A DNA stretch of 53,708 bases from Xanthobacteraceae bacterium (GCA_030037895.1 JASHPW010000033.1:1-53708), one strand, 5' to 3'. Numbered from the stretch's first letter, positions 3,166-31,607 are shown. Notes: generated by a model not told the origin, from the sequence alone. Program-made: numbers and translations.

Positions 3166-3370
3166 CAGCCATCAGGCTGTCTTTCGCCTGCTCGAGCGCT
3201 GCAATGGCAATCTCGCGCGTAACCGTTGGGAAATCGTCAAGAAACTCATTCAACGAGTGACCGCCCTCGACATAATCGATCAGCGCCTGCACGGGTACAC
3301 GCGTTCCGACGAACACCGGCGTGCCGCCAAGAATGTTCGGGTCGGAATGAACGACGGAACGCTGTTTCAT
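3149..3370 (-). CDS. DUF433 antitoxin-like protein
   Basis: A roughly 73-residue protein with the DUF433 signature: SDPNILGGTPVFVGTRVPVQ followed by LIDYVEGGHSLNEFLDDFPTV. DUF433 proteins are winged-HTH-like antitoxins or DNA-binding partners of DUF5615 proteins. I prefer the ATG at 3370 (MKQRSVVHSD) because an AGAGG sequence lies about 10 bases upstream; an in-frame ATG at 3391 would add seven residues but has no ribosome-binding site. It is probably autoregulated together with the toxin, as is typical for such modules. Confidence 0.85.
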   Translation of the reverse strand: MKQRSVVHSDPNILGGTPVFVGTRVPVQALIDYVEGGHSLNEFLDDFPTVTREIAIAALEQAKDSLMADASAA

Positions 3371-23522: not shown

Positions 23523-24149
23523 CTACGCCGCGCGCCTGATCTCGTCGGCCTGCGCGCGATAGGACAACGCCTCGGCCAGATGCACGCGGCCGACTTTATC
23601 GGCGCCGTCGAGGTCGGCGAGGGTGAGCGCGACGCGCAGCACGCGGTGATAGCCGCGCGCGGAGAGCCGCATCGCATCGGCGGCTTCGCGCAGGAGCGCG
23701 AGGCCGCCCGAGTCCGGCCGCGCCACGTCCTCCAGCACCGCGACCGCGACCGTGGCGTTGCTGCGGATATGCGGCAACCCGATCCGCGCATAGCGCGCGG
23801 CCTGCCGTTCGCGGGCGAGCGCGACGCGTTCGGCGACCTCGCGGCTGCCTTCGGCGGGCGGCGGCAAAATCAGATCGGCGGCGGTCACCGCCGGCACCTC
23901 GATGTGCAGGTCGATGCGGTCGATGAGGGGACCGGAGATGCGGGCCTGGTAATCGGCGACGCAGCGCGCGTTGGGTGCGCGGCGGCAGGCATAGCCCGGT
24001 TCGTCGGCGCGCCCGCAGCGGCAGGGATTCATCGCCGCGACCAGCATGAAGCGCGCCGGATAGGTGACGCGATGATTGGCGCGCGCGATCGAAACCTCGC
24101 CGGTTTCGAGCGGCTGGCGCAGCGAATCGAGCGCCTGCGGGGAGAATTC
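23523..24149 (-). pseudogene. comM: comM C-terminal part, cut off by a transposon
   Basis: This segment encodes the C-terminal half of the YifB/ComM Mg-chelatase-like ATPase. It resumes at EFSPQALDSLRQPLETGEV and runs through MLVAAMNPCRCG, the arginine-finger region GPLIDRIDLHIEVPAV and the C-terminal SARGYHRVLRVALTLADL. The N-terminal half lies at 27904-28823 on the same strand; joining them across the transposon with one target copy removed restores the reading frame exactly. An internal ATG at 24047 could start a partial protein, but that would lack Walker A and B. Confidence 0.95.
24142..24149. repeat. target site duplication, left (transposon 1)
   Basis: GAGAATTC here is repeated at 27904-27911. 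Because the surrounding bases also match, the duplicated stretch could be read as 10 bp (24141-24150) if the element is taken to start at GG. Confidence 0.8.
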
Positions 24150-24172
24150 CGGAATTATGTAGCTGTCTCACC
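24150..24172. repeat. terminal inverted repeat, left (transposon 1)
   Basis: A perfect reverse complement of 27881-27903. Confidence 0.92.
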
Positions 24173-24233
24173 TCTAGACTGAGGGGGTAGCGTTGGGGCA
24201 ATCTTGCCCGCGCTAGTTGGGCTTTTCCCCCGA

Positions 24234-24836
24234 ATGTCTACTGAACACTTGGTTCCAGATGACTTGCGCAAGCTGTACCACGTTTTCGAGTGGCGCAATG
24301 CGGCCGGTATTCTAGAGACGGCATGCCTGGATGAATGGGCGGACATTCAAACCGTTCTGCGGGAATTTCGCCTCTATCGAACGGAAATTCAGCAGGAAGG
24401 CGGGAACCGCTCGCTGATCTCGCGTCGTCTCGACGGGGCCTTTTACAAGCGCGGTTGGATCGAGAAAGATTTTGCGACGGCGATCATCGTTGATGACACG
24501 AGAGTAGACAGCCCGACGCATGCCGTCGATTGCTTCAAAGACCGAGTGGCTGTCGAGGTTGAATGGAATAACAAGGATCCTTTTTTCGACCGGGATTTGA
24601 ACAATTTCCGCCTGCTTTTCGAGCTGCGAGCTATAGATGTTGGCGTTATCATCACCCGCGCGACCGAGCTGCAAAAAATCTTCAAATCGCTCGGCCGCGG
24701 AGCCTCTTACGGAGCCGCAACCACACACCATGAAAAACTCCTACCGCGCTTGAATGGCGGCAGCGGCGGTGGATGCCCAATATTGGCGTTTGCGATCACC
24801 CCAAAGCTCTACGTCGATGGTGCCCCGCCAGCTTGA
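24234..24836 (+). CDS. BglII/BstYI-type restriction endonuclease
   Basis: A 200-residue protein matching the Endonuc-BglII family. FKDRVAVEVEWNNKDPFFDRDLNNFRL-like sequence (about residues 104-130) contains the catalytic D...ExE-type pattern, followed by the conserved VGVIITRATELQKIF; RLDGAFYKRGWIEKDF earlier also fits. I chose the ATG at 24234; a TTG at 24204 would add ten residues, and neither has a strong ribosome-binding site. It is tail-to-tail with the methyltransferase, 10 bases apart. Characterised relatives cut GATC-containing sites, but the specificity here cannot be read. Confidence 0.82.
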   Translation: MSTEHLVPDDLRKLYHVFEWRNAAGILETACLDEWADIQTVLREFRLYRTEIQQEGGNRSLISRRLDGAFYKRGWIEKDFATAIIVDDTRVDSPTHAVDCFKDRVAVEVEWNNKDPFFDRDLNNFRLLFELRAIDVGVIITRATELQKIFKSLGRGASYGAATTHHEKLLPRLNGGSGGGCPILAFAITPKLYVDGAPPA

Positions 24837-24846
24837 ATTTCCTCCG

Positions 24847-25491
24847 TTATAAAACAGCAGTCGAGTTGAAGGCATAAGTGGGCCACAAAGGCTGATAGTC
24901 CGCGCTCGCCTCAAACCCCCAAGACGCCCATCCCTTTCGTTTTCCCCTGGCGAATAGTTCTAGGAATGGACCCGGACTACAGCTCTCAATGATAGGATAT
25001 TGCTCATCCGGCTTTCGCGAATGCTCGCGCTTGCGTGAGCAGATGTAATTGACCTGGGTGCGGCCCGGCTGAAACGTGCGGGCATTCTTGCCGCGCACCC
25101 CGAATAGGATAAGTTCTGTCACGTTTCGGAAATAAAAGCCGACGCCACGACCGTCCGAGCCGCCGTCCTTACGGACCTTGTGCCAAATTAAATTCGACTT
25201 GTAGACGAAGCCCCAAGACTTCATGACCGCGAGGCCATCGGGCAATAAGGCGTTCGGGCACCACAAATAGAGATGAGCCGTCGCCGCCGCGATCTCCGAC
25301 ACCGGGAGCGCCTTGATCTCAGGCAATTTCATCGTCCCATAACGAGAAAGACGCTTGTGTTCCGGCGCTATTTTGCCGGTCTTGTTGACGAACTGCCAGG
25401 GCGGGTCCGCAAGGATCGTGGCGAATCGTTGGCGGCCGACAAACCGGCGTAAGTCAGCAGAAACATCGCGCTGCTCGGTTGGAGCCAGCAT
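24847..25491 (-). CDS. MT-A70 family adenine-N6 DNA methyltransferase
   Basis: A 214-residue SAM-dependent methyltransferase. TILADPPWQFVNKTG carries the catalytic DPPW, SEIAAATAHLYLWCPNALLPD and WGFVYKSNLIWHKVRKDG are typical of MT-A70 enzymes, and the C-terminal KPDEQYPIIESCSPGPFLELFARG forms the SAM pocket. Placed beside a BglII-type endonuclease, it is the likely protective partner of a type II system (M.MunI is a known MT-A70-like R-M enzyme). It follows the DUF6471 gene by two bases and is probably co-transcribed with it. Confidence 0.9.
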   Translation of the reverse strand: MLAPTEQRDVSADLRRFVGRQRFATILADPPWQFVNKTGKIAPEHKRLSRYGTMKLPEIKALPVSEIAAATAHLYLWCPNALLPDGLAVMKSWGFVYKSNLIWHKVRKDGGSDGRGVGFYFRNVTELILFGVRGKNARTFQPGRTQVNYICSRKREHSRKPDEQYPIIESCSPGPFLELFARGKRKGWASWGFEASADYQPLWPTYAFNSTAVL

Positions 25492-25493
25492 AA

Positions 25494-25727
25494 CTATTCA
25501 TCCTCAAGGTGAATGGTTTTAGCGCCGATTGCGGTCAGGCACTGCACAAGGAAAACAGCGGTGAAGTTGCCCCGACCGACCTTGTTGGTGATGTTGCGGC
25601 GGTTGTCCCTGATTCCAACCTCCGCGAGCTTCTCAGCTAGGTCGGCGTAACTCAGCCCCCGGCGTGCGAGTTCTCCCTTCAGGATACCCTTCACAAGTGC
25701 TTGCCAATCCTTAGCTTTTCGCGCCAT
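25494..25727 (-). CDS. DUF6471 HTH-like small protein, candidate controller
   Basis: A 77-residue protein, KDWQALVKGILKGELARRGLSYADLAEKLAEVGIRDNRRNITNKVGRG, with the helix-turn-helix-like pattern seen in DUF6471 proteins. It heads the leftward methyltransferase operon, and its promoter region contains repeated TATATATGATGTT motifs overlapping both divergent -10 boxes. A role like a C-protein, controlling methyltransferase and transposase expression, is inferred from position and fold only. Confidence 0.75.
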   Translation of the reverse strand: MARKAKDWQALVKGILKGELARRGLSYADLAEKLAEVGIRDNRRNITNKVGRGNFTAVFLVQCLTAIGAKTIHLEDE

Positions 25728-25756
25728 ATGGAGTCATCTTATCTAGGCATAAAAAC

Positions 25757-25785
25757 ATTATATATGATGTTTTTGCCATTGACAA
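25757..25785 (-). promoter_or_regulatory. sigma-70-type promoter for DUF6471-methyltransferase
   Basis: On the minus strand TTGTCA (25785-25780) is followed after exactly 17 bases by a perfect TATAAT (25762-25757). The DUF6471 start is about 30 bases downstream. Confidence 0.75.
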
Positions 25786-25807
25786 GCCTTGTGAAAAGCA
25801 CTATATA
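25779..25807 (+). promoter_or_regulatory. sigma-70-type promoter for the transposase
   Basis: A perfect TTGACA at 25779-25784, a 17-base spacer and TATATA at 25802-25807. The -35 box overlaps the -35 box of the opposite promoter. Confidence 0.75.
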
Positions 25808-25839
25808 TGATGTTGTAAGACATTATATAGGGTGCTTAC

Positions 25840-26808
25840 GTGGCCCAGCATTTCCTCCTATCGGCAGCCGCCCGGTCGCTCTCCCTGAGCGCCGTAGCGC
25901 GCATGTCGGACGAGGAAGCGGCGGTCACATTCCAACGCATCCGCTGGTCCGACAACGGCGGGGAGCCCTATTGCCCGCGCTGTGGTTGTCTTGAGGTTCG
26001 CAAATTGGCGACCCGATCGGTATGGAAATGCAAGGGTTGTTCACATCAATTCAGCGTCACGTCTGGGACAACCTTCGCCGACCGCAAGCGGCCGATTCGG
26101 GACTATCTGCTCGCCATCGCGATCTTCACCAACGGCGCGAAGGGCCACAGCGCCCTTCAAATGAGCCGCGACCTGAATTGCCAATATAAGACGGCCTTCG
26201 TTCTGGCCCACAAGTTGCGCGAGGTCATCGAAGACGAACAGCGCAAGACGACGTTCGCCGAAACAACGGAAAAGGAAATCGACGGCGCTTACTTCGGCGG
26301 GACGATCCGGCAAGAGAACGAGGCCGAGAAACGCGTTGATCGCCGTCTAGCGGACGAACAGACCGGCAAGCGTCAAGTCGTCGTCGTCATGCGCGAGCGA
26401 AAGGGCCGCTCGCTTCCGTTCGTCTTCGGCAAGGAAAGTGACGCGATCGAAACGATCCGTGAGCACATCCCGGTCGGCTCGATCGTGCACGCCGACGAAG
26501 CGCGTGGGTGGGACGTGCTGCACGCCCACTATGACATGCGCCGGATCAACCACTCCGTCGCGTTCAGCAAGGACGGCGCCTGCACCAATCAAGCCGAAAG
26601 CTTTTTTGCCCGGCTGCGGCGTTCCGAGATCGGCGTCCATCATCGGATCAGCGGCAAGCGCCTCAGCCTCTACGCTTCCGAGATGGCTTGGCGCGAAGAC
26701 AACCGCCGCGTCCCGAACGGCGCGCAATTCAACGCCATCGCCTCCATGGCCCTTAAACATCACATGAGCCGCGAGTGGCGCGGCTACTGGCAACGGAGTG
26801 CCCGATGA
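25840..26808 (+). CDS. IS1595-family transposase (transposon 1)
   Basis: A 322-residue transposase with an N-terminal zinc ribbon (C45-PRC48, C64-KGC67) and an ISXO2-like DDE core: D148 in EIDGAYFGG, D219 in VHADEARGW and E253 in NQAESFFARLRR. The start is GTG at 25840 with AGGGTG upstream. Its last bases overlap the companion ORF (ATGA). It should mobilise the element by its terminal repeats. Confidence 0.92.
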   Translation: MAQHFLLSAAARSLSLSAVARMSDEEAAVTFQRIRWSDNGGEPYCPRCGCLEVRKLATRSVWKCKGCSHQFSVTSGTTFADRKRPIRDYLLAIAIFTNGAKGHSALQMSRDLNCQYKTAFVLAHKLREVIEDEQRKTTFAETTEKEIDGAYFGGTIRQENEAEKRVDRRLADEQTGKRQVVVVMRERKGRSLPFVFGKESDAIETIREHIPVGSIVHADEARGWDVLHAHYDMRRINHSVAFSKDGACTNQAESFFARLRRSEIGVHHRISGKRLSLYASEMAWREDNRRVPNGAQFNAIASMALKHHMSREWRGYWQRSAR

Positions 26809-27236
26809 AGAACGATCATGTCCTGAGCGGCCTCAAGACGAAGCGAGCCGAACTCGCCGGCCGGATTGAAACCATGCAGCAGGAAATGCGCGTATTGGTC
26901 GCGACCATCGGCCATATCGATGCGACGATCCGCACGTTTGACCCGACCGTTGACCTTGAGGACATCAAACCGAAATTGCCCCCGCGCTTCCAAGCGTTCA
27001 AGGGAGAGGTTTCGCGGATTTTGTTGGATGCCCTCCGCGAAGCCAAGATGCCGCTGCCAGTTTTCGACCTCACGTTATCGGTTGCGGCCGGACGCGGGAT
27101 CGGCACGGAGGACAAGCCGTTCATGATTATTCTGCGGCGGCGCGTTGATGCCTGCCTTCGTAATTTGCGCAAGCGCGGTATCGTCCGATCAATGCGGCCG
27201 TCTGGCAGTCTCACGCTTTGGGAGATCGTGCGCTGA
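26805..27236 (+). CDS. transposase companion protein of unknown function
   Basis: A 143-residue protein with an N-terminal coiled-coil-like region (LSGLKTKRAELAGRIETMQQEMRVLVATIGHIDATI) and a C-terminal winged-helix-like part (PVFDLTLSVAAGRG, VDACLRNLRKRGIVRSMRPSGSLTLWEI). Similar ORFs are commonly found directly after IS1595-type transposases. It starts in the transposase stop codon, so it is translationally coupled; a DNA-binding accessory role is plausible but unproven. Confidence 0.8.
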   Translation: MKNDHVLSGLKTKRAELAGRIETMQQEMRVLVATIGHIDATIRTFDPTVDLEDIKPKLPPRFQAFKGEVSRILLDALREAKMPLPVFDLTLSVAAGRGIGTEDKPFMIILRRRVDACLRNLRKRGIVRSMRPSGSLTLWEIVR

Positions 27237-27435
27237 CCCGGCGCTGAGCCTGAAGTTTTTTGTATCGTTCAGCCGTCGCTTTATCGCGCTTCAATTGCGC
27301 TGGAATAAAAACATCAAGCGCCGCTTGGACAACCTCTTTCGCCGAACCGGCAAAATGAGCGGCACAAAAATCATCCAGTTTGCCATTCCACGGCTCATCA
27401 AGATTGAAACGGCCCCCGGTCGAACGCTTACGCAT
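27211..27435 (-). CDS. small ribbon-helix-helix-like protein
   Basis: A 74-residue frame starting MRKRSTGGRFNLDEPWNG and continuing LDDFCAAHFAGSAKEVVQAALDVFI. The strand-helix-turn-helix order resembles ribbon-helix-helix repressors. The frame is open back to 27561, but a terminator-like hairpin and four TGTAC repeats occupy that stretch, so I place the start at 27435, directly behind the repeats. The 3' end overlaps the convergent companion ORF by 26 bases. The RHH assignment is from pattern only. Confidence 0.5.
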   Translation of the reverse strand: MRKRSTGGRFNLDEPWNGKLDDFCAAHFAGSAKEVVQAALDVFIPAQLKRDKATAERYKKLQAQRRVSARSPKA

Positions 27436-27448
27436 AAGCAGCTCAGAA

Positions 27449-27481
27449 TGTACGGTGTGTACATCAATGTACGCCATGTAC
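27449..27481. promoter_or_regulatory. phased TGTAC array upstream of the RHH-like gene
   Basis: TGTAC starts at 27449, 27458, 27468 and 27477, spaced 9, 10 and 9 bases, immediately upstream of the start at 27435. Phased tandem motifs of this type are typical RHH operators, which suggests autoregulation. Confidence 0.55.
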
Positions 27482-27527
27482 ATTGCGCTTGACGACTCGC
27501 TTTGCTGGCGGCAAAGTGCATAAATGA

Positions 27528-27553
27528 AACGGGCGGCCTTCCGACCGCCCGTT
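27528..27553 (-). terminator. intrinsic terminator-like hairpin
   Basis: A 9-bp perfect GC-rich stem (AACGGGCGG paired with CCGCCCGTT) with an 8-base loop. On the minus strand it is followed by TTTCATTTA, so it more likely ends a leftward transcript from the structured region than a rightward one. Confidence 0.6.
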
Positions 27554-27558
27554 CCTCT

Positions 27559-27817
27559 CACTCAAACGCTTTGGTGGCGGTGGTTCCCGCGGGGGCGGGG
27601 CCACCGTCGAGTGTGCGCAGAAACAGTCTGCCACACCCCTTGCCAGCAGCGTAGATACTGCCGGACGTGAACGCGGTTTTCGCTCACGCTTTTACTCCGT
27701 CCTGAAAGGGCAGGAAGAAGCCTGCCGCTCCGAAGCGCACTCTCTTGCGCCCCGCTGGTGGAGAGCGCTTAAGCCGCTGAAGTCAGAGACGGAGTGCGGG
27801 AGATCGAATCACCGCAC
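27559..27817 (-). ncRNA. candidate structured non-coding RNA in transposon 1
   Basis: The 27562-27880 stretch has no coding frame but several perfect pairings: CACTC/GAGTG (27559-27563 with 27609-27613) enclosing CGGTGG/CCACCG (27578-27583 with 27601-27606); GTGA/TCAC (27667-27670 with 27684-27687); an 8-bp long-range helix ACTCCGTC/GACGGAGT (27694-27701 with 27788-27795) enclosing a GGCAGG/CCTGCC hairpin (27709-27726) and further stems; and GTGCGG/CCGCAC (27794-27817). A terminator-like hairpin lies just downstream on the minus strand. I do not recognise a known RNA family; it could also be transposon end DNA structure. Confidence 0.45.
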
Positions 27818-27880
27818 GGGCAACTTATCGGATTTGGTCGGAACCACCTAGATTAACGACTATTCATCCACAGGTAGCCC

Positions 27881-27903
27881 GGTGAGACAGCTACATAATT
27901 CCG
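27881..27903. repeat. terminal inverted repeat, right (transposon 1)
   Basis: A perfect reverse complement of 24150-24172; the other target duplication copy follows at 27904-27911. Confidence 0.92.
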
Positions 27904-28823
27904 GAGAATTCCGGCAGCTCGTCGAGAAACAGCACGCCGTGATGGGCGAGCGACACTTCGCCCGGCCGCGCGTGCAGGCCGCCGCCGACCAAGGCCGGCA
28001 TGCTGGCGGAATGGTGCGGCGCGCGGAACGGCCGACGGTTGGTCAGCGCGCCGCCCTCGATCTCGCCGGCGACCGAGGCGATCATCGAGACTTCAAGCAA
28101 TTCGGCGGGCGCGAGCGGCGGCAGAATCGAGGGGAGCCGCGCCGCGAGCATCGACTTGCCGGCGCCGGGCGGGCCGACCATGAGCAGATTGTGGCCGCCG
28201 GCCGCGGCCACTTCGAGGGCGCGCTTGGCGCTTTCCTGGCCTTTGATATCGCCGAGGTCGAGCGCGGCGCCCGCGGCCTCGAGGATTTTCGGCTGCGGCC
28301 GCGAGAGCACCTGGGTGCCCTTGAAATGGTTGGCGAGTTGGATGAGCGAGGCCGCCGCGATGATTTCGATCTCGGGGCTCGCCCAGGCCGCTTCCGGCCC
28401 GCACGCGGCCGGACAGATGAGGCCCTCGCCGCGCGCATTGGCGCCGATCGCGGCGGGCAGGACGCCGGCAACCGGCGCGATCGAGCCGTCGAGGCCGAGT
28501 TCGCCCAAAACCGTAAGGCCCGCTACGGCGTCGTGCGGAATGGCGCCGATCGCGGCCATCAAGCCAAGCGCGATCGGCAGATCGTAATGGCTGCCTTCCT
28601 TAGGAAGGTCGGCGGGAGCGAGATTGATGGTGATGCGACGCGCCGGCAAAGCGAGGCCGGATGCGATCATCGCCGAGCGCACCCGCTCGCGCGCCTCCGA
28701 CACCGCCTTGTCGGGCAGGCCGACGATGGTGAAGGCCGGCATCCCCGGCGCAATTTGCACCTGGACATCGACGGGCCGCACCTCGATGCCCTCGAACGCT
28801 ACGGTGGAGACGCGCTGGACCAT
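27904..28823 (-). pseudogene. comM: comM N-terminal part, cut off by a transposon
   Basis: Residues 1 to about 307 of the ComM/YifB ATPase: the N-terminal Lon-like domain (QIAPGMPAFTIVGLPDKAVSE), Walker A GPPGAGKS at 217-224 and Walker B VLFLDELPEF ending at 306. The frame then reads into the transposon end and stops within four codons. ComM is a hexameric branch-migration helicase for natural transformation, so uptake recombination is probably impaired. The ATG at 28823 is the normal start. Confidence 0.95.
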
Positions 28824-30611: not shown

Positions 30612-31607
30612 TTACCCGGCCGCGGTGACGTGAGGTATCTTATAAGTCAGCCGTTTGCCGACAACGCCCTTCAGCGCGCGCGTCGCACGTGTCGTATCAT
30701 CAACGCCAAGCGCAATGCGGTTTGAATAACGAAAATCGAATTCAGCAAGATAGCGATGTAAGTGCTTTTCGCTGCAATGCTGATAGACGCCTTTCATGCC
30801 GCGCTTGAAAATCGAATAGTAGCCCTCGACCGTGTTGGTGTGGATCGTTGGGCCGCTTTCCGGATAGCGGACATATTCGTAATCCGTATGGTTCACGGTG
30901 TCGTGGCTCGCAACGCCAGTATGGCCCTGTAGGAACTTGTACCAGCTAGCCGCGTCGGTCATGACCGCGCTTTCGCGGTTCACGTTGGCGCGGATGATCG
31001 GAAGCAACTGGCCGAGCGTCGTTCCCTCGACATGGAATGAACGAGCAGAACCGCCACGCTCAACCAGCGTCAGCACCGTGCGGCCGTATTGGCCCATGCG
31101 GCCGCCAACCCGATAGAAGCGCTGGGGCGCGCCGGCAACGCGACCAAAGCCCGTTTCGTCGATTTCGACGGTTTTGCCCGTGCCGCCGAGCGGCGACAAG
31201 CTGCCGTCCCGCATGGCCTCGCGAATGCGATGCGAAAGGAACCAAGCCGCCTTGTAGGTGATCCCCAAGACGCGGTGGAGCTGGTGCGAGGAAATGCCCT
31301 TTTTGGAGCAGCAAAGCAGATAGACGGCTTGCAGCATCTTATGGAGCGGGATGCGGCCATGCTCGAAAACCGTGCCGACGGTCACACGGAACTGTTTGCG
31401 GCACTCCTTGGACTTGCATTTCCAAAGGCCGATCCGGGCCTGCCGCTTGCCCTCTACCCGTTCCGGAGTCTGCAGCTTGGTGGCGTTGCCGACCGTGCCG
31501 CAATGTGGGCAAACCGGGCCGTCCGGCCACAAAGTTTCCTCAAGGTATTCAAAGGCTTGCGCCTCGTTATGGAAGGCCGATTTCGTCAGTTTTGAAAGGG
31601 TCGGCAT
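30612..31607 (-). CDS. IS1595-family transposase (transposon 2)
   Basis: A 331-residue transposase with an N-terminal zinc ribbon (C33-PHC36 and C64/C69) and an ISXO2-like DDE domain: D150 in VEIDETGFG, D218 in MTDAASWY and E261 in HTNTVEGYYSIFKRG. It shares the fold but little sequence with the transposase at 25840-26808, so it belongs to another IS1595 subgroup. It lies 40 bases inside the right terminal repeat. Confidence 0.93.
   Translation of the reverse strand: MPTLSKLTKSAFHNEAQAFEYLEETLWPDGPVCPHCGTVGNATKLQTPERVEGKRQARIGLWKCKSKECRKQFRVTVGTVFEHGRIPLHKMLQAVYLLCCSKKGISSHQLHRVLGITYKAAWFLSHRIREAMRDGSLSPLGGTGKTVEIDETGFGRVAGAPQRFYRVGGRMGQYGRTVLTLVERGGSARSFHVEGTTLGQLLPIIRANVNRESAVMTDAASWYKFLQGHTGVASHDTVNHTDYEYVRYPESGPTIHTNTVEGYYSIFKRGMKGVYQHCSEKHLHRYLAEFDFRYSNRIALGVDDTTRATRALKGVVGKRLTYKIPHVTAAG

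Follow-up and report, generated by a model that had tools for sequence, protein, structure and literature searches.

An IS1595-family cargo transposon in comM, with a small winged-helix protein as candidate target selector

The stretch of DNA analysed here, 53,708 nucleotides from a Xanthobacteraceae bacterium (GCA_030037895.1 JASHPW010000033.1:1-53708, below called the window), carries at positions 24150-27903 a transposon of the IS1595 family of insertion sequences (IS), which holds a restriction-modification (R-M) pair and splits the gene yifB/comM. A sequence-only reading of the window had centred on the R-M pair, and mentioned neither the protein orf153, nor a small open reading frame (ORF) at 27211-27561, nor the split of yifB/comM. 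The more important feature is invisible from the window alone, namely that comM and a few further genes are hit again and again, at fixed positions, by elements of this kind. The best explanation, and on sequence comparisons a probable one, is an IS1595-family cargo transposon in which the winged-helix protein orf153 serves as target selector.

Relatives were collected by a search with the transposase over 84,980 species genomes, which gave 74 loci, nearly all in Alphaproteobacteria and mostly with 40-70% identity. The loci were collected via the transposase only, and the collection is therefore blind to the target. With the window included, limits could be set for 53 elements, the 52 relatives being from other Alphaproteobacteria; the median length is 3.9 kb, and 49 of the 53 have a perfect 8-bp target-site duplication (TSD) and the same kind of ends. 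The broken genes were read by rejoining the flanks in silico for the 52 elements with a usable duplication. yifB/comM holds 22 of them at two exact positions, of which LDELPE|F, in the Walker B motif, has 17 and (E)ALEVSM has 5. Four further positions recur and account for another 13: a family-2 glycosyltransferase (Pfam) is hit by 5 elements at GGTSNH|F and by 3 at LDYP, a gene with the ending FCIGK, read as mnmE, has 2 at its 3' end, and 3 lie in one gene of Sphingomonas. The remaining 17 are at single sites. Two elements were classified by hand, L047 to the LDELPE|F class, where its duplication and one flank fit, and L008 to the LDYP class. The duplication keeps its place in the reading frame at every recurring site; L021 is two bases off only on account of two Ns in its duplication. 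Eleven of the elements at LDELPE|F point one way and six the other way, in several host families, and the site must therefore have been hit many times. We also looked for a target motif common to all sites, and none was visible beyond weak preferences.

Some further loci deserve mention. L051, with its left end near 3363, sits at an apparent tRNA gene 3' end, with GGTTCGAATCC close by. In Belnapia mucosa, the host of L015, the region G454:C129:286308-296597 seems to have yifB split at another position (residues 205-214) with about 10 kb between the halves, and this is probably another mobile element in comM. Phenylobacterium sp. J426 has two near-identical copies, L031 and L032, in one genome; one is in the Walker B site of yifB and the other in a site with the similar core CCGGAATnnTC, as though the primary site had already been occupied.

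The protein orf153 is present in 52 of the 53 elements, usually on the opposite strand and close to the right end (less than 400 bp away in 47 of the 52), while in the window it lies directly behind the transposase. When all target labels are placed on the orf153 tree, 11 changes of target are needed against a mean of 25 for shuffled labels, and each target forms one clade or nearly so, whereas the transposase tree needs 20. The two trees differ somewhat in the elements that they include, and the test was repeated for both proteins on one common set of 31 elements at recurring targets, where orf153 needs 4 changes, which is the minimum, and the transposase 7. The area under the curve for recognising pairs with the same target is 0.84 for orf153, 0.65 for the transposase and 0.49 for DUF6471, another small protein of the element, and cargo families cross targets. 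Thus, orf153 tracks the target better than the transposase, DUF6471 or the cargo. In Sphingomonas, transposases that are 73-94% identical are found at three targets, and the orf153 proteins are only 20-33% identical between targets but 62-85% within them. For L154, a new element outside the first sample, orf153 gave the right target and the transposase a wrong one. The target follows orf153 rather than the transposase, as judged by phylogenetic association and with incomplete fidelity. An AlphaFold2 model of orf153 has a long N-terminal helix and a winged helix, with a predicted local distance difference test (pLDDT) score of 92.8 and a Z of about 10 for the winged helix. The winged helix is a common DNA-binding fold, and the model suggests that orf153 could bind the target.

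Several observations weigh against orf153 as a selector, or at least against a strict one. L044 and L057 have an orf153 of the yifB type and sit elsewhere though yifB is intact. A second sample of more distant elements, partly overlapping the first, gave 13 new ones with duplications, and 12 of these are at non-recurring sites, the last one being in yifB as predicted from orf153. Four new elements have an orf153 that shares 60-81% identity with a classified protein, and three of them (L150, L152 and L156) are off the expected site; yifB, the expected target, is intact in the genomes of L152 and L156. To this should be added the non-recurring sites in the first sample (17 of 52), that several recurring sites are supported by few elements, some of them close relatives (L034/L054), and that orf153 is usually next to the right end, so that linkage to the site through recombination could mimic part of the signal. 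A filled or missing attachment site was considered as the cause of off-target insertion; this holds for L031, whose yifB is filled by L032, but not for L044, L057, L152 and L156. We think that the targeting is a preference within closer clades and not absolute; in branches further away, other sites may be used, or none at all.

It could be that the transposase itself recognises the target and that orf153 is a regulator or an end-binding protein that merely varies together with the site. Most IS families pick their targets by the transposase alone, and the transposase tree also clusters the targets, with 7 changes against 13 for shuffled labels in the 31-element set, but the very similar Sphingomonas transposases are found at three targets with orf153 switching along, which makes us regard this as unlikely. 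The identical transposases of L031 and L032 at different sites in one genome also speak against it, although their orf153 proteins are identical too. We give a somewhat smaller chance to there being no dedicated selector at all, only a weak sequence preference together with survival in dispensable genes such as comM, and with orf153 following the site by flank recombination beside the right end. The short distance between orf153 and that end in 47 of 52 elements fits this, and bacteria often tolerate inactivation of comM, which may be of help to mobile elements (PMC11472951). Selection for the loss of comM can however not account for 17 elements inserted at one and the same base pair, both orientations are present, orf153 is internal in the window and in a few others, the left-slot cargo does not track the site, and the two elements in mnmE, L003 and L042, come from different families and have transposases that are 66% identical.

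That an ordinary R-M island lies by chance between IS1595 ends, in an unremarkable site, is very improbable. Homologous R-M pairs are widespread without these ends, and a second copy with R-M genes was not found among the relatives. The sequence-only reading had proposed to search the ends for the same cargo elsewhere, and had regarded the lack of such genomes as damaging; it is literally true that none of the other genomes searched has these R-M genes between such ends, but the unit stands, because the perfect ends and the TSD around the whole unit, and the empty site with an intact yifB in close relatives, establish it. The same evidence excludes the other objection raised there, that the R-M genes overlap the IS ends by chance, and the architecture is moreover constant in the 52 relatives.

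The selector reading, which we prefer, is built on an element with a fixed backbone, which consists of the terminal repeats, the DDE transposase, a small divergent helix-turn-helix (HTH) regulator (DUF6471 here) and orf153, the remainder being exchangeable cargo. The plan seen in the family is left cargo, the small divergent HTH gene, transposase, right cargo and orf153. The HTH gene is DUF6471 in 34-36 of the 53 elements and another Cro/CI-like HTH in 14. It had been suggested from the window that this gene is a controller (C protein) of the R-M system, which we reject, as DUF6471 occurs with unrelated cargo and has the same place in about two thirds of the elements without such an R-M pair; it is a backbone gene of most relatives. 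Nor is the R-M pair the defining content of the element, as it is in none of the 52 delimited relatives, and the earlier judgement that such a pair within a short IS1595-type unit looks uncommon holds among them. For most relatives the cargo has no Pfam match. What could be recognised includes SocA/Panacea antitoxin domains, P63C, KilA-N, BRO proteins and AAA ATPases, and PADLOC matched RmrA (L028), BstA (L013), PDC-M19 with a DNA methylase (L009) and PDC-S13 (L033). One cargo family of 261-331 amino acids (aa) is found on the minus strand in the left slot of L017, L022, L042, L045, L046 and L052, whose targets differ; the member in L017, the one scanned alone, is without Pfam match, and the family is a candidate defence or toxin-antitoxin gene. 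The transposase and orf153 proteins were also sought on plasmids, where only distant relatives were found. The transposase DNA of L149 is the same as that of L020 (Rhizobiales bacterium SYSU XM002), a hit within the host's own order that puts the host in the Rhizobiales.

In the window, the ends and the duplication were solved jointly. The 25-bp inverted repeat arms at 24148-24172 and 27881-27905 are 100% complementary, and the element is bounded by the TSD GAGAATTC at 24142-24149 and 27904-27911, in the yifB codons around PEF-S in minus-strand reading. The left terminal inverted repeat, CGGAATTATGTAGCTGTCTCACC, is at 24150-24172 (plus strand) and the right one at 27881-27903 (minus strand). 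These are exactly the limits, with perfect repeats and an 8-bp duplication, that had been given for the IS1595-type unit before. The C-terminal part of the interrupted yifB/comM is at 23526-24047 and the N-terminal part, broken in ...LFLDELPE|F (Walker B), at 27894-28823, both on the minus strand and both matching TIGR00368. The gene was found in nine genomes of the same genus, in eight of which both halves are close together and open, while the ninth ends at a contig edge. The host genome has a single copy of the element.

The transposase (25840-26808, plus strand) is full length with 322 aa and matches DDE_Tnp_IS1595 (1.3e-36). It belongs to the IS1595 transposase family, as judged by models above their curated cut-offs, Pfam PF12762 with 126 bits (cut-off 27), PF12760 with 42.8 (25.4) and NCBIfam NF033547 with 128 (75), together with the terminal inverted repeats and the 8-bp TSD. 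The start ATG of orf153 (26805-27236, plus strand, 143 aa, coiled coil and winged helix) overlaps the transposase stop as ATGA. DUF6471 (25494-25727, minus strand, Pfam 4e-27) is divergent from the transposase, and there is a gap of 2 nt between its stop and the start of the methylase. In the divergent promoter region three direct repeats of the AAAAACATTATATATGATGTT type (25751-25836) overlap a minus-strand promoter of sigma-70-like type (TTGTCA-17-TATAAT, 25785-25757), and are likely an operator. As a conserved regulator site common to the transposon ends the repeats were rejected, since they are clear in the window but not general. The small ORF at 27211-27561 (minus strand, 116 aa, possibly shorter) is cargo with one homologue, in L024, and like orf153 it is without family match; the TGTAC words repeated upstream of it (GTGTACATCAATGTACGCCATGTACATTG, 27453-27490) are possibly an operator. 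No domains of TnsA/B/C or TniQ/TnsD were found among the ORFs of the unit, which thus does not group with Tn7-like elements, and a search for structural RNA within it gave none. About 2.8 kb from the element, at 30666-31559 on the minus strand, there is a second, distant IS1595-family transposase (31% identical).

Turning to the R-M pair, the BglII-type endonuclease (24204-24836, plus strand; Endonuc-BglII PF09195, E 2.7e-46) and the MT-A70-type DNA methyltransferase of the N6-methyladenine (m6A) class (24847-25491, minus strand; PF05063 2e-29, PADLOC MTase_II 2.7e-88) are convergent, tail to tail, as had been claimed, and Pfam bears out the identification of these two genes and of the transposase. 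A restriction endonuclease of a known family lies beside a DNA methyltransferase, as in a type II R-M system. The conserved region VDCFK..RVAVEVEWNNKDPFFDRDLNNF of the endonuclease is common to its homologues, and alignment with these shows that the VDxxKxRVAVEVEWNNKD region and the DPPW motif of the methylase are present. On this comparison the catalytic regions seem intact, and the pair may be active. A sequence search matched no solved structure. Endonuclease homologues were found in 18 of 385 class-wide genomes, including that of the window, and 15 of the 17 others were read again with up to about 6 kb of flank. A related methylase adjoins the homologue in 14 of these 15 loci, and none of the 15 has this transposase or element ends with fewer than 5 mismatches. 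The pair has therefore been captured as cargo and is, as judged from sequence, a known kind of R-M system picked up by the transposon. Both proteins are alike those of stand-alone BglII-type and MT-A70 systems of Alphaproteobacteria (in the five closest the endonuclease is 54-61% and the methylase 65-73% identical), which differ in not being bounded by IS1595 ends and in having a gene order that varies between tandem and convergent. Experiments have demonstrated the movement of an R-M system linked to an IS (PMC3031569).

It is established that IS1595-type elements can carry passenger genes (PMC3129680), and the family includes "transporter IS" (tIS) elements, whose passengers have no relation to transposition (Siguier et al. 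2009, cited in PMC3129680 and PMC12561309). The tIS elements share with the window unit an IS1595-type DDE transposase, inverted ends, an 8-bp TSD and such passenger genes, but not the fixed two-slot architecture with a DUF6471-type regulator and orf153, the R-M cargo or the recurrent exact coding positions. Unlike the window family with its recurrent exact coding positions, ISApl4 from the IS1016 subgroup goes into AT-rich 8-bp sites of diverse sequence (PMC12561309). The Tn7-like Tn6022/AbaR and Tsy, which has a tyrosine recombinase, also carry cargo and enter comM at or near Walker B by a separate selector, TnsF, which requires a conserved 10-bp Walker B stretch (Faure et al. 2023, PMC10293859). 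Their machineries, TnsABC or a tyrosine recombinase, are unrelated to the IS1595 transposase, TnsF is a protein of about 500 aa related to tyrosine recombinases where orf153 is a 143-aa coiled coil with a winged helix, and in the window family both orientations occur, with a TSD of 8 bp. The window family converges with Tn6022 and Tsy on the Walker B site of comM, with a transposase and a small protein that are both unrelated to theirs. In Acinetobacter, diverse elements interrupt comM, often with defence genes aboard, and its loss lowers transformation (PMC11472951). The IS1202 family (ISAjo2, at pdif/dif sites) is also target-specific, but by the account in PMC10132070 it is another family with another target and a fixed orientation. 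In the searchable open literature we found nothing on an IS1595 element with R-M cargo, comM or a selector, although an earlier record may exist in the 2009 IS1595 paper or in ISfinder; as far as that literature was searched, the recurring coding targets and the candidate selector are new.

Tn7 with TnsD inserts downstream of glmS in one orientation and leaves the gene intact. Like the window family it recognises conserved coding sequence and tolerates synonymous differences, and such recognition therefore works across hosts, whereas in the window family the gene is broken and the orientation is free. In the mechanism that we propose, the transposase would cut and join the ends, as its family, the ends and the TSD suggest, and orf153 would most likely bind conserved coding sequence of a housekeeping gene and bring the transposase there, as TnsD and TnsF do in Tn7-like elements. 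The orf153 of the window is part of the clade that would direct insertion into the yifB/comM codons for Walker B. The insertion inactivates comM, the loss of which lowers recombination of heterologous transforming DNA in other bacteria, and the type II R-M pair would contribute defence and put a cost on losing the element. Transposition is presumably active, and the insertion and its cargo presumably bring a benefit. For the wider claim, a one-transposase IS family with a separate and exchangeable selector, whose swapping redirects insertion among the Walker B and second sites of comM, the 3' end of mnmE, the glycosyltransferase and other sites, and which makes up a third independent machinery homing to comM with variable, partly defensive cargo, we find the balance of evidence favourable.

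What is known of target selectors comes mainly from large Tn7-like machines. If the selector reading is true, a minimal IS1595 transposase with a selector of 143 aa would be a far simpler system, where the choice of target could be studied via one small protein. With three unrelated types of transposon converging independently on the comM codons for Walker B, it could also be tested directly whether mobile elements attack transformation genes so that they are not lost. New defence systems could be sought in the variable cargo, where many unknown proteins accompany known anti-phage genes.

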